In this document: positions 21,749-35,366 of the stretch, in pieces | How the letters are laid out: each line of letters opens with the position of its first letter | Position numbering within the stretch: the first letter of the stretch is position 1 | From: Candidatus Eiseniibacteriota bacterium | GTDB taxonomy: Bacteria > Eisenbacteria > RBG-16-71-46 > CAIMUX01 | NCBI GenBank assembly: GCA_903844735.1 | Contig: CAIMUX010000005.1 | Span: forward strand, 1 to 48,086 | DNA: 48,086 nt | Direction of reading: 5' to 3' | Position numbers and translations under genes: made by a program | The notes under the pieces: model-generated | Seen by the model: the letters and a program-made list of their open reading frames with translations, nothing else | What the model was told of the DNA's origin: nothing | The model's database searches: none

Positions 21749-22148
21749 CGATTCCTCCTCCCCATGGGGGGGGACAGTACACCGGCGAGGGGGCGGGGTC
21801 AACGCGGGCGGGCAACATCCGCACCGATCTCCCCGGGGGATCGCTCTCATTGCAACCCGCTGTAAGATAATCGATTCGTAACTATTCAGGTAGCCGGAAG
21901 CCGGAGTTCAGGAGTCAGAATGAGGCCGCTCCTCGACGAGATTGGAGGACCCTTACATGTACGTGAGCGTTGACTGAAGAGTAGCCCCCCCTGCCCACCT
22001 CCTGGCCGAGGGTTTGCCGGGCCGATCCGTCGGACGCTGGGAGGCAGGGTAAGCGGCGGGGTGGCCGGGGTGGCGGGGCGTGACTTGCGACCGCTACGAG
22101 AGCTCCTTACAATCCCGCAGCTTCGCGGAAACGATGGAGGACTGTGCG
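21749..22148. other. Divergent intergenic region between yicC and the peptidase MA gene
   Basis: About 400 bases with no gene. It should hold the promoters of the yicC operon (minus) and of the plus-strand secreted protein. It contains the heptanucleotide repeat copy at 21889-21923 and a G-rich stretch (22000-22080). Confidence 0.6.
21889..21923 (+). repeat. Heptanucleotide repeat element, short copy
   Basis: Five 7-base units GGTAGCC, GGAAGCC, GGAGTTC, AGGAGTC, AGAATGA match the reverse complement of the block at 17885-17940, including its unit order at the AGGAGTC/AGAATGA end. Confidence 0.75.
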
Positions 22149-25100
22149 ATGGATCGAACCGGGACGGGACGGGGCGGGATCTGGGTGGGCCGCGATCAGG
22201 GAGTCAGGCCCGACCAGGGAACCTTGGCCGCGCGGTCCAGGTCCGCCGGTCCGCGCATCTCCACCCGCTGCGACCTCGCGATTCTCGCGGCGCTCGCCCT
22301 CGCCACGGCCGCCATCTCCACACCTGCCAATGCCCAGGACATCAAGCCGAACCAAGCCTGGCGCGTCATCGAGAGCGCACACTTCCGGGTCACCTACGCC
22401 CCGGGGCTCGACTCCCTCGCCGCCCGCGCCGCGGTGGCCGCCGAATCCGTGCGCATCGTGTTGACGCGCGACCTCGGACCACCTCCCGCCGGAAAGATCG
22501 ACCTGGTGCTGAGCGACGATACCGACGACAGCAACGGGTTCGCCGCTCCGTTCCCATCGAACCGCGTCGTCCTCTTCGCCCATCCGCCCGCCGACGAGGT
22601 CCTTCTCGGAGACTTCGATGCCTGGATGCACGGACTCCTCGCCCACGAGCTGACACACATCTGGCAAATGGACCGGGCGGGATGGGCGGGGCAGGCACTG
22701 CGCGTCGTGTTCGGCAGGCTGCCTTCCGGCTGGCCGCTCTTCCCGGTCATCGGGGCTCCGAACTGGTTCATCGAAGGGAACGCGGTGAGCTACGAGACAG
22801 AGCTGACCGGCCGCGGGCGGCTCGCCGGACGCGTTCACGAGATGATGCTGCGGACCGCATTGCTGGAGGGGCACGCCGAGCCGTACGACAGGATTTCCAA
22901 TCCGACCTCCTCGTGGCCCGCGACGAACCGCGCCTACGCCTTCGGCTCCTTGTTCGTTGATCATCTTGCGCGTTTGCACGGTCCCGACGTGCGCGCGATG
23001 CTGACTGCGAGATGCGCGGGTGCCGTGGTCCCGCCGCCGCTCGCCTTCGACCGCGTGGCCGAGCGTACGTTCCGTCATTCCTTTTCGGGGTCGTACCGCG
23101 ACTGGCAAAGGGATCTCGCCGTGCAGTACGGGATGCTGCGCGACTCGCTGACCTCGGCGGGGCTGACCGCCACCGAGGTGCTGGCCGAAGGCGGCGCGTG
23201 GAGCGGACCGACTCGGTTTTCGCCCGACGGACGGTGCCTGGTGTATCACCGGTCCGATTGGCGCAGGCCGGCCATGGCGGTCATCCTTGACCTCGAGTCC
23301 CGGCGCGAGCACGACCTGTGGCGCCACGATGCCGCAGCGAACTACGCTTGGCTGCCCGGCGGCGATCTCGTCACGGCCCAGTCCGAGATCCTTGAAACCT
23401 ATCGTTCCTACTCCGACCTGTGGCGCATTCGACCCGACGGGCGCGCGCGGCAACTCACGCACGGCGCGCGCCTGGACGATCCTGATGTCTGCTTGCGCAC
23501 GGGCGAGGCGATCGCAGTGGAGAACGGGCGCGGGACGACAAGGCTCGTCATGGTCGATCTCGCGAAGGGGCCCGTAATCCGTCGTTTCCCGTCGCCGCCG
23601 GAGGTGGTGTGGGCACACCCACGCTGGTCTCCCGACGGTTCACGGATCGCAGCGGAACGGCTTTCCGACGGAAGCCGCGATATCGTGGTTCTCGACCGCG
23701 ACGGCAACGTGCGCGTGGAAATCACCGGTGACCGGGCATGCGATGCGTATCCCGCATGGTCTGCTGACGGACGGTTCGTCGTCTTCGCCTCGGATCGCAC
23801 GGGGATCTGGAATCTCTTCGCCGCGGCGATGGATGGTCCCGCGGCAGCTCCGGGCACCGGGGTGACGGATGCCGCAGCCGACAGCTCCGGCCTGATGATG
23901 GATGCCGCGGTCGACCGCTCCGGCCTGCCACCGGATGTCGAGGACGTTGTACAGCCAGGGGACGGCTCCCGCGCGACGCCGCATCCACGCCTGCAGCAGG
24001 TGACGAATCTCCTCGGCGGCGCGCTCCAACCGGATGTATCACCGGACGGCAAGTGGATCGTTTTCTCGTCCTACCACGCCGACGGAATGCGGATCGAGCG
24101 GATCCCGTTCGACCCGGCGGCGTGGCGGGAAGCGGCGGCCACGACGGAGGGCCTGTCATCAGCGGCTGCGACGGCAATCACCACAGCGAAGGCGGAAGCG
24201 GCGACGGACGCAAGGACGGAGGCAAGGACGGAGGCGGGGACGGGGACAGAGGCGATGACGGAGGCAGGGACGGAGGTAGGGACAGGCACGTCGAGCACGC
24301 AACTTGCTCCATCCCCGCCGCCGGCTTTCACGTCCCGCCCCTACCACGCCTGGCGTTCGCTGCGGCCGCACTACTGGATGCCCCAGTACCTTGCCGGCAC
24401 GGAAACCGGCGAATACTACGGGCTCAGCTCGTCCGGAGAGGACATGGTGGGGCTGCACCGGTGGAGTGCCTGGGCCGTGACGGAACCACAAAGCGGACGC
24501 AGGCAAGGCGCCGCCGGCTACTCCTGGTCCGGCCTCGGCAACCCGGTTCTGGGATTCAGCGGTGGGCAGACCTGGGACCTGCTCCGGGCGTCCTACAGCG
24601 ACAGCTCCCGCCACACCGCGCGCGAGCGGGAGCAGCGTTTTGCGGCGAGTGCGACCTTCCGCCGACCGCGCCGGCACGGCAGCGCCTGGTTCACCCTCGG
24701 TAGCGAGATCATCCGGCGCCGGCGCATACCGGATCGCGTCTATGCCGACTCACTCGGCGATCCGGTTATGCTGCGATATCCGAACGGGCGGCTCTTCGGG
24801 TTCGGCGGCACCCTGGCCTACTCGAACACGAGCGCGCGATTCTACTCCATCAGCCCGGAAGACGGGGTTACATTCCGTCTCGACCTTCGCCGCCGCTGGG
24901 ACCTCGGCCGGTACCCGACACCCGATCTCGGCGACACCGAGACTCGCGTATCGATGGCCGCCTACCGCGCCGTGACGCGGATCGCCTGGTCGAGGGCCGT
25001 GCTGGCGGCGCGCGCCAATGGGGTCGTGCGCAACGGCCGCGGCGCCTCGTGGGCCGACCTGGGCGGGGTTTCGGAAGGAACGCTCAACCTCGAGATCGTC

Positions 25101-25658
25101 ACCTTCGGCGGCAGTCGCCTCTTGCCGCTGCGCGGCTTCCCTTCGGGAGTCCGTTCCGGCACACGCGCCTGGTCGGCCGGGCTCGAATGGCGGATGCCGC
25201 TGTTTCTGGTGGAACGAGGGCTCGATACTCCGCCGATCTTTCTCGAGCGGACCTGGGCGGTTGCATTCCTCGACGCCGGCGATGCGTGGGCGCCGCAGAG
25301 CCAGGGAGGCAGGCAGACCGGGTGCGGCGGAGGCCCCTGCCTCGACGGTTACACCCTGGATCCGCTGGTGAGCGCCGGTGCCGAGCTGGCACTGCGCGGC
25401 ACTGCTATCCACTGGCTGACCGTTGCGCTGCGGTTCGGCGTCGCCCGGCAGTTGGCGGGTGGGTCCGCGACGGTCACCTACCTGGCCCTGGGCGGCGGAG
25501 GCATCGGGGGAACGGCCCTCAAGCTCGAGCCACGGGCCAGCCATCGGACTCTTCAACTCGGCGAGTCGAGCTTTCCCCCGCGGAGTACACGGCGGGCCGC
25601 ACAGGTCAGCGCACCAGATGCAACCAATCCCCCAGCAGGAAATCCAGCCGCCCGATGA
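22149..25658 (+). CDS. Secreted peptidase-MA-like / beta-propeller / outer-membrane barrel protein
   Basis: The 1169-residue protein's ATG at 22149 has GGAGG eight bases upstream. A signal peptide (ILAALALATAAISTPANA-Q) follows a longer than usual N-terminus. A gluzincin-type metallopeptidase domain carries HELTH (166-170) with a downstream Glu in NWFIEGN (E209). TolB-like propeller repeats follow (GPTRFSPDGRCLVYHR, PRWSPDGSRIAAERL, YPAWSADGRFVVFASDRT, LQPDVSPDGKWIVFSSY). After a low-complexity Thr/Glu/Ala linker, the C-terminal 400 residues look like an outer-membrane barrel (ARTEAG linker to EWRMPLFLVERG). The set suggests a cell-surface protease, substrate unknown. The 3' end overlaps the convergent gene by 53 bases. 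Confidence 0.85.
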   Translation: MDRTGTGRGGIWVGRDQGVRPDQGTLAARSRSAGPRISTRCDLAILAALALATAAISTPANAQDIKPNQAWRVIESAHFRVTYAPGLDSLAARAAVAAESVRIVLTRDLGPPPAGKIDLVLSDDTDDSNGFAAPFPSNRVVLFAHPPADEVLLGDFDAWMHGLLAHELTHIWQMDRAGWAGQALRVVFGRLPSGWPLFPVIGAPNWFIEGNAVSYETELTGRGRLAGRVHEMMLRTALLEGHAEPYDRISNPTSSWPATNRAYAFGSLFVDHLARLHGPDVRAMLTARCAGAVVPPPLAFDRVAERTFRHSFSGSYRDWQRDLAVQYGMLRDSLTSAGLTATEVLAEGGAWSGPTRFSPDGRCLVYHRSDWRRPAMAVILDLESRREHDLWRHDAAANYAWLPGGDLVTAQSEILETYRSYSDLWRIRPDGRARQLTHGARLDDPDVCLRTGEAIAVENGRGTTRLVMVDLAKGPVIRRFPSPPEVVWAHPRWSPDGSRIAAERLSDGSRDIVVLDRDGNVRVEITGDRACDAYPAWSADGRFVVFASDRTGIWNLFAAAMDGPAAAPGTGVTDAAADSSGLMMDAAVDRSGLPPDVEDVVQPGDGSRATPHPRLQQVTNLLGGALQPDVSPDGKWIVFSSYHADGMRIERIPFDPAAWREAAATTEGLSSAAATAITTAKAEAATDARTEARTEAGTGTEAMTEAGTEVGTGTSSTQLAPSPPPAFTSRPYHAWRSLRPHYWMPQYLAGTETGEYYGLSSSGEDMVGLHRWSAWAVTEPQSGRRQGAAGYSWSGLGNPVLGFSGGQTWDLLRASYSDSSRHTAREREQRFAASATFRRPRRHGSAWFTLGSEIIRRRRIPDRVYADSLGDPVMLRYPNGRLFGFGGTLAYSNTSARFYSISPEDGVTFRLDLRRRWDLGRYPTPDLGDTETRVSMAAYRAVTRIAWSRAVLAARANGVVRNGRGASWADLGGVSEGTLNLEIVTFGGSRLLPLRGFPSGVRSGTRAWSAGLEWRMPLFLVERGLDTPPIFLERTWAVAFLDAGDAWAPQSQGGRQTGCGGGPCLDGYTLDPLVSAGAELALRGTAIHWLTVALRFGVARQLAGGSATVTYLALGGGGIGGTALKLEPRASHRTLQLGESSFPPRSTRRAAQVSAPDATNPPAGNPAAR
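23872..23945 (+). repeat. Tandem repeat within the peptidase MA gene (first)
   Basis: Two units of about 36-39 bp encode DAAADSSGLMM and DAAVDRSGLPPD in an insertion between propeller blades. Confidence 0.6.
24195..24300 (+). repeat. Degenerate short tandem repeat within the peptidase MA gene (second)
   Basis: Multiple units of about 12 bp (like GGACGGAGGCAA) encode a low-complexity ARTEARTEAGTGTEAMTEAG linker between the propeller and the barrel. The frame stays open. Confidence 0.75.
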
Positions 25659-26292
25659 GCAGTGACATGCGGCTCATCACCGTGTAGCCGAAGCTCGCCC
25701 CGAAGGTGACCATGAGGAAGAGGATCCCGATGCGCGCCGTCACCCCGACCGCCTTCTTATGCTCCAGCGAGAAGAAGAAGTAGACCAGTCCGGTGAACGT
25801 CCCCACGAAGACAAGCAGAGGATTCCAGTAGGGGTTGAACGGCGGCGGCGGCCACAGATGTTTGTAGAACTCCGCGGTGATGAGCGGGGCTTGGATAGTG
25901 GCCTTCATCTGCTCCAGCGCATTCGACTGCAGGTAGGTGATAAAATAGAGACCGGCGGTCGCCCCCACGATGAATGCCATCGGCCAGCGGGAAATCCAGC
26001 CCACCTTCGGCAACAGTCGCATCAGCATCATCACCCCGAGGACGCCGGCCACGAGATACACGACGCCGCCACCGGGGCCGTGGCCATGGACCAGCGCGGT
26101 CACGACGTCGCGCAGGTTCAAGACCAGCTTCGGCCAGATGTTCTGCCAGAAGAGGCTCACAAACCAGTAGCCGGCCGACACGCCGATGAAGATCGCCTCG
26201 CACACCTTGTAGACCGGGTTGTCCTTGTACAGGAACGAGATGATCCCGAGCGTGAGGAACGCCCCCAACCACACTCCGAAGTCGAGACTCAT
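25606..26292 (-). CDS. Polytopic inner-membrane protein, last gene of the B12-riboswitch cluster
   Basis: The 228-residue protein has about six hydrophobic segments (FGVWLGAFLTLGIISFLY, VVYLVAGVLGVMMLMRLL, WPMAFIVGATAGLYFITYL, LLVFVGTFTGLVYFFF, IGILFLMVTFGASFGYTVM). Between the third and fourth is a hydrophilic loop with LITAEFYKHLWPPPPFNP. I do not recognise the family with certainty. The ATG overlaps the stop of the preceding gene as ATGA, so translation is coupled. The C-terminal 53 bases overlap the convergent peptidase MA gene. It is probably a subunit of a membrane complex with the three genes upstream. Confidence 0.8.
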   Translation of the reverse strand: MSLDFGVWLGAFLTLGIISFLYKDNPVYKVCEAIFIGVSAGYWFVSLFWQNIWPKLVLNLRDVVTALVHGHGPGGGVVYLVAGVLGVMMLMRLLPKVGWISRWPMAFIVGATAGLYFITYLQSNALEQMKATIQAPLITAEFYKHLWPPPPFNPYWNPLLVFVGTFTGLVYFFFSLEHKKAVGVTARIGILFLMVTFGASFGYTVMSRMSLLIGRLDFLLGDWLHLVR

Positions 26293-27140
26293 GGCGCGCC
26301 TCCCGCCGAGCCCTTCCGTCGCGTGAGGAAGTAGGCGAGGTTGCCCACCACGATGAACAGGATCACCACCAAGTGGGCCGCCGCCTGCGAGAGCATGTAG
26401 ACGGTCCCCTTCCCACGGAACCCGCTGATCGCCTCATACTCCGCGGCCCCCTTCATGCCGCCGAGCAACCCCGTGAGCTGCTGCGGCCAGTACGGGTAGA
26501 TCTGCGGCGCCTGCACGGCGGTCGAACCGGAACCGATGGGAACATGGAACCGGTCGCCCGCGAACTGCACCCACTGCAGCGTTCCGGGATCACCGGCCGA
26601 AACATTGAAGAGGTAGGAGATCGCGGTGAGGTCGCGCACCCCCTTCATGATCGGAAACTGTTCCAGCGGCCGCCCGCGATAGTCGCGCGGGAAGATGGCG
26701 GAAATGTCCGAACCCATCCGCTGGATGACCACCTCGTTTCCCGACTGATAGCCGAGATTGACATAGTCGATGCCGTACTGGGGGTTGCGCGCCGCCACGC
26801 CGGGCTCCCGCATCGCCTCGGCGATCGCCAGGTCGGCCTGCTGCGGCCCCTGCGGCCAGAGTCCGACGATGATGACGCGCAGCCCGCGCCCAAAAGCATG
26901 CTTGAGGAACGTCACCGCCATCGGCTGCAGCTCAGCCGCGGTGCCGGGGTCGTAATCGGCGGCGAACATCACCTTGGATCCGGGGGGCAGCGCCTCTACC
27001 GCGTCGTAGATCCCGCGCGCCTCCGGGGTCACGTCGATCTTGAGGTCGCGGTGCATGAAAAGCGGTGCTGCAACCGCTACCCCGACAAAGAGGAAGATCC
27101 AGCGCCGGTCGATCCGTAACAGCAGCTCAAAGAAGCGCAT
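26289..27140 (-). CDS. Membrane-anchored protein with extracytoplasmic alpha/beta domain
   Basis: The 283-residue protein has an N-terminal membrane anchor (WIFLFVGVAVAAPLFM), a middle domain of about 200 residues and a C-terminal membrane segment (AAAHLVVILFIVVGNLAYFL). The middle part begins GIYDAVEALPPGSKVMFAAD and VTFLKHAFGRGLRVIIVGLW, a Rossmann-like pattern loosely reminiscent of GldG-type auxiliary domains; this resemblance is an inference. The ATG at 27140 has GGGAGG seven bases upstream and overlaps the stop of the preceding gene by one base (TGATG). The frame extends upstream to 27266 but that part lies inside the preceding gene. Function unknown. Confidence 0.8.
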   Translation of the reverse strand: MRFFELLLRIDRRWIFLFVGVAVAAPLFMHRDLKIDVTPEARGIYDAVEALPPGSKVMFAADYDPGTAAELQPMAVTFLKHAFGRGLRVIIVGLWPQGPQQADLAIAEAMREPGVAARNPQYGIDYVNLGYQSGNEVVIQRMGSDISAIFPRDYRGRPLEQFPIMKGVRDLTAISYLFNVSAGDPGTLQWVQFAGDRFHVPIGSGSTAVQAPQIYPYWPQQLTGLLGGMKGAAEYEAISGFRGKGTVYMLSQAAAHLVVILFIVVGNLAYFLTRRKGSAGGAP

Positions 27141-27793
27141 CAGTCGCCTCCCAGGTGCGACCGCTCGATCCCCAGGATGAGCCGCAGCGACGTGGCCGCC
27201 GTGCCCAGAGCGATACCGATCATGATGGCCCGCTGTCCGGCCAGGTTCGGAACCTGCATGATCCAATTCGCCACCGAGGAGAGACGGTACTGTTCCGGCA
27301 GAACACCGGTAAGCTGGTCACCCAACGGCACGCGTCCCAGCATCACGAGAACCCCAGCGACCAGCAGGAGGGTCGCCTCCAGGTTGCGTGCTCGAAAAGC
27401 GCGGTAGGCGGCGCTGGCCACGTAGAAGGCGAGCACTGCGAACATCGTCGCCGAAAGAGGGTTATACACGTTCTGGTAGATCCAGTCGAACGGCGTGCCC
27501 GGCTCCTGGAATCGCTCCCCGCTGCTGAAGAAGAAGCCCACAACGGCGGTGGCCAGGAAGCTCACCACCACGATCCCGGCGTACGGCCAGCCCTTCTCGC
27601 GGCGCGCAACCGCGTTCCCCGACACCTTCATCAGGTTCAGCGCCCCGAGCCAGATGGCGAACGCGGTAATGATCGACACGAAGTCGCTGAGCAGGTTCTG
27701 CAGGACGGAGAACGGCCAGTGCGGCACGAAGTACTGGACGATGTAGATGATCCCCACAAGTCCGGTGAGAAAGAGCGGGACGGTTCGCTTCAC
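27140..27793 (-). CDS. Polytopic inner-membrane protein of the same cluster
   Basis: The 217-residue protein starts at a GTG with GGGGGAG just upstream. It has about six membrane segments (VPLFLTGLVGIIYIVQYFV, FVSIITAFAIWLGALNLM, YAGIVVVSFLATAVVGFFF, PLSATMFAVLAFYVASAAY, ATLLLVAGVLVMLG). It ends one base into the next gene. No family could be named. Its tight spacing between the DUF6754-like gene (72 bases upstream) and the anchored alpha/beta protein indicates one functional unit. Confidence 0.8.
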   Translation of the reverse strand: MKRTVPLFLTGLVGIIYIVQYFVPHWPFSVLQNLLSDFVSIITAFAIWLGALNLMKVSGNAVARREKGWPYAGIVVVSFLATAVVGFFFSSGERFQEPGTPFDWIYQNVYNPLSATMFAVLAFYVASAAYRAFRARNLEATLLLVAGVLVMLGRVPLGDQLTGVLPEQYRLSSVANWIMQVPNLAGQRAIMIGIALGTAATSLRLILGIERSHLGGD

Positions 27794-27865
27794 GCTCTCC
27801 CCCTACCCGGCTCGCGCACGCGGGTGACGCCGAAGAGGTGCGGGGCTCGCATCATGCCCTTCCCC

Positions 27866-29239
27866 CTACTCCGCCCGCAGCAGGCGCGTGAAGTCGAAGA
27901 GGTGCAGGGTCTGCACCAAGGCCCCGACCAGCAGCACGAGCAGGATCACCGCCTTGGAAAGATCCTGCCCCTTGATGCTCCCGAGTTGCCGCGGCTCCCG
28001 CGAGAGATAGGCCCCGGCCACGAAGAGTTCCTCGCCGAGAAGGGTGTAGTCGCACGCGGCGACGAAGAACGGCAACTGCGCCGGCTGGGCTGTTCCCGCG
28101 ATCTGGATGGCGCCGATCGAGTTTCCCGTCTCCGCCAGGATGAGGGACTCCGCATAGAAGGAGCCCTGCATGAAAATGGTGGCGGGTTTCTCGCGCACCA
28201 TGATCCCCTCGATGGCGGCGGCATAGCCGAACTGGTCATCCGTCAGATAGTAGACCATATCGTCGTTGTACAACTCGGGCCGGCCTGTCGCGAGATACGA
28301 CTCCTTCACCGTCTCGCGAGCTGCGACCATGACCAGCGAACGGCTGACCGGCACGGTGAGCGACGTCTCGTACTCGGCGGTAAGGCGCGCCACACGCCCG
28401 AGGATGGCGATCCCAGCGAGGGTCTGCACCTGGTCCATGTCCTGCGTCCCGGGGATGTAGAGGATCCTTCGCCCCATCTCGGTGGCGCGGCCGACCGCCT
28501 CGTCCACAGCCTCCAGGCCCGCGATTTTGCGAATGAATATGTTTCCGCCGCGCCGCGCATGCTCGATGTAGTACAGGACAAGGCCGGAAAGCACAAGCAC
28601 CGCAACGAGCATGGAGATCCGCCCGAAATGGAACCATTGTCCCTTCGGCACCGCCGGACCGGCGATCCCGGAGACAGACGCCTCGTTGCCGAGGAAAGAA
28701 GTGCCGGGAGTGAAAGCCCCCTCCTTCAAGCCGACCGCGACCTCTCCCCCGGCCTGAACATCCGTTTCCCCCGTCGCCCGCACGCGATACCAGTAACGGG
28801 TGCCATCGCGCAGCCCCTCGGCATCCAGGAACTCGGCCAGCCCGCGCGGCGCGCGGCCGATCTCGGCGAAGGGGCCTTCCGGCACCGTGGCCCGCAGGAT
28901 GAGATAGCCCGCGAACGCTACATTCTCGCGGGCGTCATCGGGTGAGGGCGACCATCGGATCACGATCCGCCCCCCGTCGTCGTTCGGGGCATCGGCGACC
29001 GTGATGGCCGTGGGCGGACGCATGGCGGAGACAGCGTGCGTCGCGATCACCCCGGCGCGACCCTCATGACCGACCGGGGCAGAACCGGTTGCGCCGGTTG
29101 CCTGGGCCGGGGTGGCGGAAAGAAAGGTGGAGTACACGAACCAGGCGATGAGGAGTGCTCCATACGAGAGAGCGGCGCCGCAGGATCTTGCCCGCACCCT
29201 ACCGGGGGCTGAAGCCTGCCTCCCTCGCCTTTGTGTCAT
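27866..29239 (-). CDS. Fibronectin type III / DUF6754-like membrane protein
   Basis: The 457-residue protein's ATG at 29239 follows GGGGGA. An N-terminal signal anchor (ALLIAWFVYSTFLSA) is followed by an Fn3 domain (PTAITVADAPNDDGGRIVIR, FAGYLILRATVPEGPF, GTRYWYRVRATGE). A membrane segment (ISMLVAVLVLSGLVLYYIEH) leads into a domain of about 200 residues containing GRRILYIPGTQDMDQVQTLA and ETGNSIGAIQIAGTAQPAQL. A final membrane segment closes it (AVILLVLLVGALVQTLHLF). The second domain resembles what I remember as DUF6754, a family of unknown function; this needs a profile search. It is the largest subunit of a four-gene membrane module. Confidence 0.75.
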   Translation of the reverse strand: MTQRRGRQASAPGRVRARSCGAALSYGALLIAWFVYSTFLSATPAQATGATGSAPVGHEGRAGVIATHAVSAMRPPTAITVADAPNDDGGRIVIRWSPSPDDARENVAFAGYLILRATVPEGPFAEIGRAPRGLAEFLDAEGLRDGTRYWYRVRATGETDVQAGGEVAVGLKEGAFTPGTSFLGNEASVSGIAGPAVPKGQWFHFGRISMLVAVLVLSGLVLYYIEHARRGGNIFIRKIAGLEAVDEAVGRATEMGRRILYIPGTQDMDQVQTLAGIAILGRVARLTAEYETSLTVPVSRSLVMVAARETVKESYLATGRPELYNDDMVYYLTDDQFGYAAAIEGIMVREKPATIFMQGSFYAESLILAETGNSIGAIQIAGTAQPAQLPFFVAACDYTLLGEELFVAGAYLSREPRQLGSIKGQDLSKAVILLVLLVGALVQTLHLFDFTRLLRAE

Positions 29240-29378: not shown

Positions 29379-31043
29379 TCACCCTCCCAGCGAGAATTCC
29401 GGGATCGGAACCGACACATCCAGCCGCAGCCCCATCGGCTTCTTGGTGAACTTGGAGGTGCCGTTGATGAGGTATCCCGCGGCCGGTCCCGGCGCGAAAC
29501 TCCCGCCGCGCAGCGTCACCGTCACGTGATCGGGCAAGGTCCAGTCGATGCGGCCATCGATCTCCGTTCCGAGGTCGGTCGACTGGCTGCCGGGATAGAG
29601 AAGGAGAGGATGGGCGGGGTCGGGGTCGCCATACGGGTCATGGTCGTACTCGTTCGGGGTGATCACGCCATCACCCGGTCCTCCGAGATCCTCCCCCAGC
29701 ACAGGCGCGTCCCGCCACGGCCTGAGCGGCTGGGTAGCCCGGAGCATCGTCCACGAAACGCCGACCTTCAGGCTTGGGCGCACCTTGAATGCGACCAACG
29801 CCTGGATCGCCGTGGTGTTTTCGAGGCCTCGGTAGGCCCGCACGTCAGGGTTGGCCAGCCCCTGCGGCGCGATCCCGATATCCTCCAGCGAAAGGCCGTT
29901 CCCCCACACCTCGGTGAGGAACCAGCGCCCCTGGGTGTGCAGCGCATTGATGTTCCCCTCGTCACGGAACGGGTGAGGGTCTCCGGAACCACTCGCATAG
30001 GTGCCGGCCAGCTCTAGGCGTGTACCGGTCCAGGCGAGGCGGCCGTATATGTTCCTCCCCTTGAGATCGCCGTTGTTCACGTCGCGCGTTCCGAGAGGGC
30101 CTGAGCCGGGCCAGAGGCTGTCGCCTCGCACGCGGTCCGCGCCCGACAGAATATCCAGCTCGGCATCGATCCGCAGTGACTTGCCCGCGCGGGAGGCGGC
30201 AATACCGATCACGGTAGCCTGGCTGATGTTCGGCCGGAACCGCGCCTGAAGCTCGTGGCCGTCCGGTAGGAGGGTCGTGCTGTCTGCGTTGCTCCGGTCG
30301 ACGTAGTAGACGGCGAACGGATTCAAGAAAAACCCCTGATTGTCCTTGCCAAGACGCACTTCCCCGAGAAAGAGATCGGCATCGCGACCATCCACGACTC
30401 TCCTCGGAGTGCTCAGCGAGTCGACGCGAGAGAGATCCGCGATCGTCCCGGACTCCGATTCCTTCGCGAAGCCGAACCCCAGCGCCCTGGTCGGGCCGAA
30501 GTCGCGCCACACCTGCAACCCGGGGGCGTCCTCATCGAGAACGAGGAGATTCCCCAGCGCGAACTGTTGCCGGCCGATATACCAGCGCGTCGAGGTCCGA
30601 CGGTGCCGGTACGAGAGGTAGGCGTGATCGACGCGGAGGTCGAAAAACTCTTTCCGCTTCAGGGTCAGGTTTGCGGAGGAGTCCGGCGAGGCTCCAGGGA
30701 GGCCCCACACGCCATGGGCGAGATCCATCTTCATCGTAATGTTGAGGTCGTCGGCCAGGATCAGCCGCGGTCGCAGGGTGAGCCGCTGCGTCCAGAAGGC
30801 ATCGAACTCCCCCTTCCCCGCGGTGTCCGCGCGCGCGCCGAGGAAGAAGTATTTCTGCGAGTAGGCGTCCACCTCGAAGCTGCCCGAAAGCGTCAGGCGG
30901 GACCGAGGCGCGCCCTCCGGCGCTCCTCCGGTCGGAGCTTCCTTTCCGGGGTTGCCCTGACCGTACGCCACTGCGGGAGAAAGCAACGCAGCCACAAACC
31001 CGAGCAGAAGCCCCGCCGCGCCCGATTGCCGTACCAGAATCAT
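29379..31043 (-). CDS. Outer-membrane beta-barrel (alginate-export/porin-like)
   Basis: The 554-residue protein's ATG at 31043 has AAAGGAG seven bases upstream. The signal peptide is AGLLLGFVAALLSPAVAYGQ. The body alternates short amphipathic strands: RLTLSGSFEVDAYSQKYFFL, HAYLSYRHRRTSTRWYIGRQ, GFFLNPFAVYYVDRSNADS, RNIYGRLAWTGTRLELAGTY. The strand style and the WYIGRQQFALG segment recall the alginate-export porin family. It lies 110 bases after the propeller gene in the riboswitch-headed cluster, so it may provide an outer-membrane channel for the same system. The substrate is unknown. Confidence 0.78.
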   Translation of the reverse strand: MILVRQSGAAGLLLGFVAALLSPAVAYGQGNPGKEAPTGGAPEGAPRSRLTLSGSFEVDAYSQKYFFLGARADTAGKGEFDAFWTQRLTLRPRLILADDLNITMKMDLAHGVWGLPGASPDSSANLTLKRKEFFDLRVDHAYLSYRHRRTSTRWYIGRQQFALGNLLVLDEDAPGLQVWRDFGPTRALGFGFAKESESGTIADLSRVDSLSTPRRVVDGRDADLFLGEVRLGKDNQGFFLNPFAVYYVDRSNADSTTLLPDGHELQARFRPNISQATVIGIAASRAGKSLRIDAELDILSGADRVRGDSLWPGSGPLGTRDVNNGDLKGRNIYGRLAWTGTRLELAGTYASGSGDPHPFRDEGNINALHTQGRWFLTEVWGNGLSLEDIGIAPQGLANPDVRAYRGLENTTAIQALVAFKVRPSLKVGVSWTMLRATQPLRPWRDAPVLGEDLGGPGDGVITPNEYDHDPYGDPDPAHPLLLYPGSQSTDLGTEIDGRIDWTLPDHVTVTLRGGSFAPGPAAGYLINGTSKFTKKPMGLRLDVSVPIPEFSLGG

Positions 31044-31153
31044 CCTCGGACTCCTTTCCCGCGCCGATCGGTACCCACCCGAGACGGGGGATTCTTGTCC
31101 ACAACGGCTACGGGGTCCAGTCTCTTCTGTGTTGGCCACCTGAGAGGCTCGGC

Positions 31154-32566
31154 TCAACGGACGATGCGCACGGGTCGAGCCATGGTTCGCCCACGGCCCG
31201 ATTCCAGGCTGAGCCAGTAGACGCCGCTCGGCACAGACCGCCCGGCGTCATCGCGCCCGTCCCAGAGGAGATCGGCATCTTCGCCGGCTTCCTGCAGTTC
31301 GATGGATCGGACCCGGCGGCCATGGACGTCATGCACCTCGAATCGACTCGGCCGGTCCGCTCCCGGCGCGGTCCACGACAGGCGAACCGGTCCGGCGGAT
31401 GGGTTGGGTTTCGCGTCGGCAACCTGCCAGGGTGAACCGGGCACCTGGGAGGTCACAGCGGGGAGGACGACAAGCTCGTTCGGAGGCAGACCGGCCGCCA
31501 GGGGTCCGGCCAGCAGGGCCCCGGTGGCCGCTTCGTAAACCCGAATGCCGGGATTGTTGAAATCGCGATCGCCGAGAAAGAGCTCTCCCGCGGGGTGAAC
31601 CAGAAGATCGCTCAGAACATATCCGCCGGGATTGTAGACCGTACCGGTTCCTTGGCCGGTCGTAGGGTTGAAGGTGAGCAACGCGGTGTTGAACCCGGGG
31701 AGGGAGACGAGGGCATAGCCGCGACTCGCGGACCAGATGGCGAAGTCAATCAGATCCCCGCCCAACGCCGCCTCGGTGACCACGAATCCCAGCGACCTGA
31801 GGGAGACCGGATCCACACGATCGAGACCCGCCGTGTCGATCACGCCGTACTGCCCCGCCTCCGGAACGAGAAGGCAGCCCGTCGCGGAATCGACCTGCAT
31901 CGGCCCGATCGGATTGGTCCCGGCCAGTGCGATCCCCTGCACCCCCGGCGTCGCCGGGTCAGCGTCGACCAGTTGGCGCGTGGTGAGGTCGATCACGGCC
32001 AGGAGCGAAGGCACGACCGGCAGCCACAGATCAGGCCAGGGCTGACGGTGCATCCGTTGCAGTTCTACGAAAAGCCGGTTCCCGTACACTTCCATCCGGT
32101 GCATCTCGCAGAGACCATCGATGTCGGCGAAGGACGCCAGAGAGATCGTGCCCGTCTGTGCTCCCGTCGACGGGTTCACTTCGAGAAGGTCGTTGCTCTC
32201 GTAGCGGGAAACGTACGCGCGGGTCGTGCTGATGATGGCGATATCCTGCGGATTGGATCCGGACCCGACCGAGAACTCGCGGATGACGCTCCAGCCGGCG
32301 GGATCGATCACCTCAACGTTGTCGCAACCAAGCCGATTGACGGCGTAGACCAGACCGCCCTCAACCCGGAGCACAGCGTCGGCGCAAATCGGCGCCAGAT
32401 TCGATTGAACGTTCCAGGGGGGAGCGACCGGCAAGGCGGCGATCGATCCGGTGGCGTAGTCGGTCGTGAGCGCTAGAATCCGGTCCTGGGCGGCAGCCGG
32501 GCTCGTAAGAAGACCGATGAGCGCGGCGGCCGCGGCGGCGGTGCGGTTCTGATGTGGCATTCTCAT
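31154..32566 (-). CDS. Secreted YncE-like beta-propeller with FlgD-like Ig domain (BtuG-like role)
   Basis: The 470-residue protein has a signal peptide (AAAAAALIGLLTSPAAAQ). A beta-propeller follows with repeated strand blocks: LTTDYATGSIAALP, LVYAVNRLGCDNVEVID, NPQDIAIISTTRAYVSRYES, NDLLEVNPSTGAQTGTISL, SLLAVIDLTTRQLVDADP. The last 80 residues are a FlgD-like Ig domain (ADAKPNPSAGPVRLSW, FEVHDVHGRRVRSI, LLWDGRDDAGRSVPSGVYWL). The ATG at 32566 has AAAGGAG upstream and shares one base with the stop of the BtuB-like gene, so synthesis is coupled. In Bacteroidetes a surface propeller, BtuG, partners BtuB and captures B12; position and fold suggest the same role here, without proof of homology. 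Confidence 0.78.
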   Translation of the reverse strand: MRMPHQNRTAAAAAALIGLLTSPAAAQDRILALTTDYATGSIAALPVAPPWNVQSNLAPICADAVLRVEGGLVYAVNRLGCDNVEVIDPAGWSVIREFSVGSGSNPQDIAIISTTRAYVSRYESNDLLEVNPSTGAQTGTISLASFADIDGLCEMHRMEVYGNRLFVELQRMHRQPWPDLWLPVVPSLLAVIDLTTRQLVDADPATPGVQGIALAGTNPIGPMQVDSATGCLLVPEAGQYGVIDTAGLDRVDPVSLRSLGFVVTEAALGGDLIDFAIWSASRGYALVSLPGFNTALLTFNPTTGQGTGTVYNPGGYVLSDLLVHPAGELFLGDRDFNNPGIRVYEAATGALLAGPLAAGLPPNELVVLPAVTSQVPGSPWQVADAKPNPSAGPVRLSWTAPGADRPSRFEVHDVHGRRVRSIELQEAGEDADLLWDGRDDAGRSVPSGVYWLSLESGRGRTMARPVRIVR

Positions 32567-35093: not shown

Positions 35094-35366
35094 ATGCATA
35101 TCACCAGCATTTCCGAAGCCAAGGCGCAACTGTTCTCCCTGATCGAACGGGTGCTCGCCGGTGAAGAGGTGCTCATCGGCGAAGCAGGAAAACCGGTGGC
35201 CAAGCTCGTCCGTTACGAGCGGAGCGACAAGAACCGCGTCCCCGGAGCCTTGAAAGGCAAGATCAAGATCGCGGCTGACTTCGATGTGTTGCCCACGGAC
35301 CTTGCCTGGGCGTTCGGAGGTTCGGTCACGACGAACACCGGCCGCAAGATCTCGTTGTTCGAGTAG
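35094..35366 (+). CDS. Phd/YefM-family antitoxin, apparently orphan
   Basis: The 90-residue protein has the Phd fold N-terminus (ITSISEAKAQLFSLIERV, GEEVLIGEAGKPVAKLV) and the linker typical of PIN-toxin partners (PGALKGKIKIAADFDVLPTD). The C-terminus (GGSVTTNTGRKISLFE) departs from the usual short end after LAWAFGG. AGGAGG lies about ten bases before the ATG. The next 227 bases hold no PIN/VapC or Doc toxin in any frame, so the pair is broken or the antitoxin acts alone or on a distant toxin. Confidence 0.88.
   Translation: MHITSISEAKAQLFSLIERVLAGEEVLIGEAGKPVAKLVRYERSDKNRVPGALKGKIKIAADFDVLPTDLAWAFGGSVTTNTGRKISLFE

Follow-up and report, generated by a model that had tools for sequence, protein, structure and literature searches.

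A stretch of 48,086 nucleotides (nt) from a Candidatus Eiseniibacteriota genome (contig CAIMUX010000005.1; hereafter the window) carries a cassette of four genes, called A, B, C and D here, which follow one another in that order on the reverse strand between positions 25606 and 29239 (Table 1). Judged from their order and sequences, the four products very probably form one inner-membrane complex, and a soluble protein pair encoded elsewhere in the genome, M and Z, is its candidate partner. The initial annotation had described the four genes as tightly packed with ATGA and TGATG overlaps, which was borne out for the B/C junction (TGATG, 1 nt overlap) and the C/D junction (ATGA, 4 nt overlap), but not for A and B, which lie 72 nt apart with no overlap. 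Reading the sequence, a purine-rich GGGG/GGGAGG stretch stands a few nt 5' of every start from A to D; the scan for promoter-like sites returned none, and terminators were no more numerous than in shuffled sequence.

Table 1. Features of the window in and around the four-gene cassette (TM, transmembrane helix; ORF, open reading frame).
Feature	Position	Strand	Description
Gene A	27866..29239	-	457 aa; signal peptide, Fn3, TM, DUF6754 alpha/beta domain, TM
Fn3-type domain of A, residues 70-199	28643..29032	-	predicted periplasmic; fold match, low K+R near membrane
DUF6754 of A with two flanking TM helices	27887..28645	-	predicted cytoplasmic Rossmann-like domain, residues 240-413
Gene B	27140..27793	-	217 aa, GTG start; six predicted TM helices, both ends predicted cytoplasmic
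Gene C	26289..27140	-	283 aa; TM, alpha/beta domain (about residues 35-250, predicted periplasmic), TM
Gene D	25606..26292	-	228 aa, polytopic; five clear hydrophobic peaks, probably six TM
Porin-like gene	29379..31157	-	592 aa; same strand, probably outside the system
ORF with PD40/TolB-like repeats	22080-25658	+	1192 aa; HELTH metalloprotease-like motif by eye

The product of A, which the initial annotation had called DUF6754-like with Fn3, matched DUF6754 (PF20539) over residues 199-451 in a Pfam profile search (E=2.7e-121; 404 bits against a cut-off of 27), and its Fn3 domain, which fell below the Pfam cut-off by sequence (11.8 against 25 bits), was clear by fold (4bqb_A, Z score 12.7, root-mean-square deviation (rmsd) 2.4, 97 residues aligned). 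An AlphaFold2 model of A (mean pLDDT 86, 70-sequence alignment) showed a hydrophobic helix at the N-terminus, with the residues AQA after it as an apparent signal-peptidase site, and a Rossmann-like domain (240-413) set between TM 205-229 and TM 416-444. The DUF6754 domain was densely conserved, with 16 invariant columns in 70 sequences, and Fn3 does not appear essential, as about ten A proteins, with start sites assigned heuristically, lack it or have no room for one. B, C and D gave nothing over cut-off in Pfam or NCBIfam, and none of the four genes could be assigned to a known function. The AlphaFold2 model of C (pLDDT 95.9) was an alpha/beta domain flanked by two TM helices, with most of the 11 invariant columns in 71 sequences lying within that domain, and in D the residues N25, E32, R92 and Q128 were invariant. 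Despite the similar layouts, homology of the alpha/beta domains of A and C, and of B and D, was rejected, as profile comparison gave no signal (hhalign probability 2.8 and 0.35).

Positive-inside charge counts, averaged over alignments of 70 A, 40 B, 71 C and 40 D sequences, predicted DUF6754 to be cytoplasmic and both Fn3 and the alpha/beta domain of C to lie outside, in agreement with the initial expectation of domains on both sides of the membrane. Such a topology would also suit a transmembrane sensor or signal transducer, with Fn3 or C's domain sensing outside and DUF6754 signalling inside, as would the several cassettes per genome, the variable N-termini of A and weak 7TMR-DISM_7TM matches in 10 of the 40 B proteins. 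Those matches were under cut-off (for the window's B as well), the loops of DUF6754 are strongly invariant, and the cassette brings no kinase, cyclase or other output domain; we therefore regard a sensor as improbable.

A wider contig search confirmed at least 502 relatives, and 79 loci were kept. We scanned 135 stretches for the cassette (the window, four loci of its own genome, L041-L159 and L165-L175, with the short loci L001-L006 and L011-L040 excluded), some of which share one genome. The scan yielded 176 A hits, 29 of them truncated by the end of a contig or locus, leaving 147 A genes with sufficient downstream sequence; 142 of these 147 were followed by B, C and D in order and on the same strand, the exceptions being L096, L100, L102, L107 (B doubled) and L136 (other genes inserted). 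In the third cassette of L107 (15175-16950), B is a single 591-aa frame with two B matches. Altogether 150 complete cassettes were found, with median gaps of 12 nt (A-B), 3 nt (B-C) and 6 nt (C-D), so the cassette is not a chance arrangement, and the four genes were nearly always together, as a functional module would predict. The window's own genome has five copies of A, and B, C and D come after every one of them. At the closest orthologous locus, L167 (which is the same place as L014), A is 62% and B 75% identical to those of the window.

The distance matrices of A to D correlated with one another over the 150 cassettes (r 0.66-0.81), against values of at most 0.11 in 200 shuffles. Within the 23 multi-cassette loci r was 0.74-0.87, and swapping members within a locus gave at most 0.38; every cassette has thus diverged as a unit separate from the others, which is what a complex would lead one to expect. 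In a FastTree phylogeny of 163 aligned A proteins (midpoint-rooted), those at the first, second and third positions of Zixibacteria arrays fell largely into separate clades, and the A of the window grouped with the first-position clade. Conserved order and co-divergence together support the single membrane complex that the initial annotation had suggested. Old operons can persist, and the four genes might be functionally unrelated and together merely by descent; as whole cassettes have been duplicated, dispersed and arrayed as units and co-diverge, this explanation appears most improbable.

DUF6754 was detected in 45 of 47 genomes of the window's phylum, including all 26 of the good ones, with one to seven copies per carrier, and in 0 of 14 control genomes. 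Among the matches listed, relatives came from about fifteen phyla as named by record titles, nearly all of them titles of metagenome-assembled genomes: Zixibacteriota, WOR-3/Stahlbacteria, Latescibacterota, Cloacimonadota, Neomarinimicrobiota, Fermentibacteria/Aegiribacteria, Eisenbacteria, Edwardsbacteria, Coatesbacteria, Gemmatimonadota, Planctomycetota, Poribacteria, Caldithrix, Acidobacteriota and Deltaproteobacteria. In the Planctomycetota, 41 of 149 genomes carried A.

Clustering of the cassette neighbourhoods revealed a second recurrent element, the pair M-Z, which lies outside the window and for that reason is absent from the initial annotation. In the window's phylum and in Fermentibacteria it forms part of a larger locus, gcvT-gcvH-gcvP (two genes)-P-Y-M-Z-A-B-C-D, found in full or nearly so, where the gcv names are a reading of the sequences with no family search behind them, P is a small protein of the membrane that matches bacterial PH weakly, and Y a small protein without match. 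A shorter (Y-)M-Z-ABCD form occurs in Planctomycetota and elsewhere, and M-Z stands directly upstream of A in several phyla. M matched the MutL/GlmL family (PF13941) over its whole length with 425 bits against a cut-off of 27 (396 bits for the M of the window's genome), and fell below the equivalog and family cut-offs for GlmL in NCBIfam (235.6 against 475 and 172.8 against 204 bits). Phosphate and adenosine motifs were present by eye, from which M probably binds ATP. No Pfam family is specific to Z, which gave weak barrel-sandwich and KOW matches; among 22 Z proteins, Biotin_lipoyl was matched by 17, RnfC_N by 13 (best 1.2e-6) and NQRA_N by seven, and the best solved structure found by sequence reached only E=0.05. 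It is strikingly conserved across phyla, with 21 sequences 45-62% identical to the first.

M and Z are closely linked to each other and to the cassette. M was found within 1.5 kb of Z at 42 of 49 Z loci, and three Marinimicrobia join the two in a single frame (993-1014 aa) immediately upstream of A. In the named collection, 50 A-bearing genomes drawn from the 79 loci were searched for Z, and 48 had a match (misses G047 and G085; broken pieces only in G068). Z was present in 43 of the 47 genomes of the window's phylum; G018 and G023 lacked A as well, and G011 and G043 had A only. Among the 149 Planctomycetota, 36 had both A and Z, five A only, two Z only (one of these a 28-residue edge fragment) and 106 neither (Fisher p = 1e-26, uncorrected for descent). 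As 11 of the 36 genomes with both had over 4 kb between A and Z, or had them on different contigs, the link is not one of gene order alone. Most carriers had one full-length Z against one to seven copies of A.

In the window's genome, contig C121 carries the genes for Z, M, Y, P and gcv and stops just past Z in a minisatellite (L165 1-290; 42 bp, 6 copies, 93% match, running to the contig end). A sixth cassette, expected there from synteny, was looked for and not found: the minisatellite continues to the contig end with no A-like frame. Only two MutL-family genes were found in this genome, the M on C121 and a fusion on contig C33 (L166 3923-6898), a 991-aa protein that joins M-like and divergent Z-like parts; divergent Z matches within long frames were seen in other genomes too.

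From these data we tentatively favour a reading, possible and still short of probable, in which ABCD is an inner-membrane complex that couples ATP turnover by a cytoplasmic M-Z to the moving or releasing of cargo, or to the transmission of force. B and D would make up the membrane core, to which A would contribute its cytoplasmic Rossmann-like DUF6754 domain, usually with a periplasmic Fn3 domain, and C its periplasmic alpha/beta domain. The soluble M, a MutL/GlmL-type ATPase of predicted actin-like fold, and Z, with its barrel-sandwich and KOW-like modules, would act on ABCD from the cytoplasm; their ATP turnover would change the state of A's cytoplasmic domain, and this change would pass through B and D to the periplasmic domain of C, so that the complex moves or releases its cargo or passes on force. 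In genomes with several cassettes, one full-length M-Z would as a rule serve several specialised complexes.

Several observations weigh against this proposal. Planctomycetota G104 and G135 each have two near-full Z matches; five Planctomycetota, two genomes of the window's phylum and two of the named collection carry A with no detectable Z, in assemblies that are often incomplete; and in the window's own genome no cassette was seen adjoining M-Z. The neighbouring gcv and peptide-transporter genes indicate metabolism as much as transport, and M-Z may act as a chaperone or enzyme instead of as an engine.

As a maintenance chaperone, M-Z would be a GlmL-like reactivase or an assembly factor, with ABCD driven otherwise, by an ion gradient or a substrate. 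M is closest to GlmL, which we take to be an accessory protein of a B12 mutase, and the presence of one M-Z against up to seven cassettes is compatible with either a common engine or a common chaperone. The scores of M under the GlmL cut-offs argue the other way, as does the search for a mutase: glutamate mutase E (PF06368) was over cut-off in 0 of 47 genomes (control genomes likewise matched only below cut-off), and glutamate mutase was accordingly rejected as the partner of M. A search for lysine aminomutase (PF09043) also matched 0 of 47 genomes and was uninformative, as the controls gave nothing either. On balance we modestly prefer a shared engine, and consider a chaperone somewhat unlikely.

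An enzymatic role was weighed from the folds and the gene neighbourhood. ABCD would then be a membrane-bound enzyme complex binding a nucleotide or metabolite, and M-Z a soluble enzyme that uses ATP in the same pathway, possibly one of amino-acid or one-carbon metabolism. The whole-A model matched 1s7g_A (Sir2) through its alpha/beta domain (Z score 11.6, rmsd 3.3, 140 aligned), and the model of C matched 1kjn_A (Z score 10.1, rmsd 3.2, 137 aligned), CODH/ACS epsilon (Z score 8.4) and transhydrogenase dIII (Z score 7.8); Sir2, CODH/ACS epsilon and transhydrogenase dIII presumably belong to one SCOP fold (DHS-like NAD/FAD-binding). These scores are middling for Rossmann-like domains and demonstrate no cofactor. 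Foldseek alone on C gave nothing useful, mostly receptor fusion constructs and Rossmann enzymes, and searches of solved structures by sequence returned none for A alone (its profile finds essentially Fn3 chains), none for C alone and none below E=1 for the C profile. The genes gcvT-H-P lie upstream of the cassette in 13 loci of the window's phylum and five of Fermentibacteria, and one family has peptide ABC transporter genes downstream, which would suit an enzyme; most cassettes have no adjoining gcv genes, and the predicted periplasm is an unusual place for nucleotide cofactors, so that we hold an enzyme complex to be unlikely.

Other neighbours recur in particular lineages. The apparent peptide ABC transporter genes were seen downstream of the cassette in L049-L059, from a single family of the window's phylum. 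Genes read from sequence as ExbB/ExbD/TonB-like follow the cassette in L097, L104, L105, L108 and L125 and in L124, L139, L140 and L147 (WOR-3, Fermentibacteria), and in WOR-3 a run of small conserved genes lies between them and the cassette.

Within the window, the initial annotation had taken the location of the module after an outer-membrane barrel as a hint of trans-envelope function. The porin-like gene is on the same strand and ends 77 nt ahead of the A ORF (139 nt ahead of the A start used here), and its product scored 28.5 bits against an outer-membrane porin model with a cut-off of 250. When the comparison loci were searched by tblastn with this protein, no relative was detected, and L167 has other genes in its place; the barrel therefore gives no argument for a trans-envelope role and was rejected as a partner, and a joint span of the envelope by ABCD and this barrel is very improbable. 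On the other side, the ORF with PD40/TolB-like repeats converges with D, overlapping its 3' end by 53 nt. A further frame at 35094-35366 (+) encodes 90 aa that we take to resemble the Phd/YefM antitoxin, with no toxin-like frame after it.

Known systems were compared with the proposed ATP-driven complex in turn. A carries the full DUF6754 domain, a family that is itself a domain of unknown function, and B, C and D stand outside the Pfam models. M shares with GlmL/MutL (PF13941, TIGR01319, NF040745) its full-length PF13941 match and differs from GlmL in scoring below that protein's cut-offs, in being about 130 aa longer and in having Z, not a mutase, as its neighbour. The actin-like fold is also found in PilM of the type IV pilus and type II secretion system platform. 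Z resembles the RnfC/NqrA barrel-sandwich, and plain Biotin_lipoyl about equally well; Rnf/Nqr membrane subunits were not among the best 25 of 86 families for 40 B proteins or the best 25 of 32 for 40 D proteins, and the window's B and D matched no Rnf/Nqr family over cut-off. The layout of GldG/ABC_transp_aux, presumably a TM, a periplasmic alpha/beta domain and a TM, would be like that of C; this family was not among the best 25 of 31 for 71 C proteins, nor in the list of folds for C, which excludes nothing. The ABCD cassette differs from GldG/ABC_transp_aux in bringing no ABC ATPase: there is none in A to D, and one stands beside the cassette in some lineages only.

No paper with DUF6754, PF20539 or PF13941, nor one on the system, was found in a literature search that left subscription journals mostly uncovered, and no characterised relative of the ABCD system was found; the system is new in that sense, and not as a demonstrated mechanism. 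Nearly all genomes of the window's phylum have the set, and among the matches listed it is spread over many phyla, yet nothing was found in print. Its conservation, its copy number of up to seven and its old tandem arrays suggest that, in many uncultured bacteria, it probably has a basic role in the envelope or the energy economy. ABCD and M-Z might even represent a class of ATP-driven transmembrane machine not described before, where a single MutL/GlmL actin-fold ATPase with a barrel-sandwich adaptor energises several parallel specialised inner-membrane complexes in FCB lineages and Planctomycetota, an idea that we consider doubtful at present. The strict pairing with one M-Z gives the cassette a concrete candidate partner, and suggests that, in these phyla, a protein name taken from the glutamate mutase accessory protein may be a wrong one.

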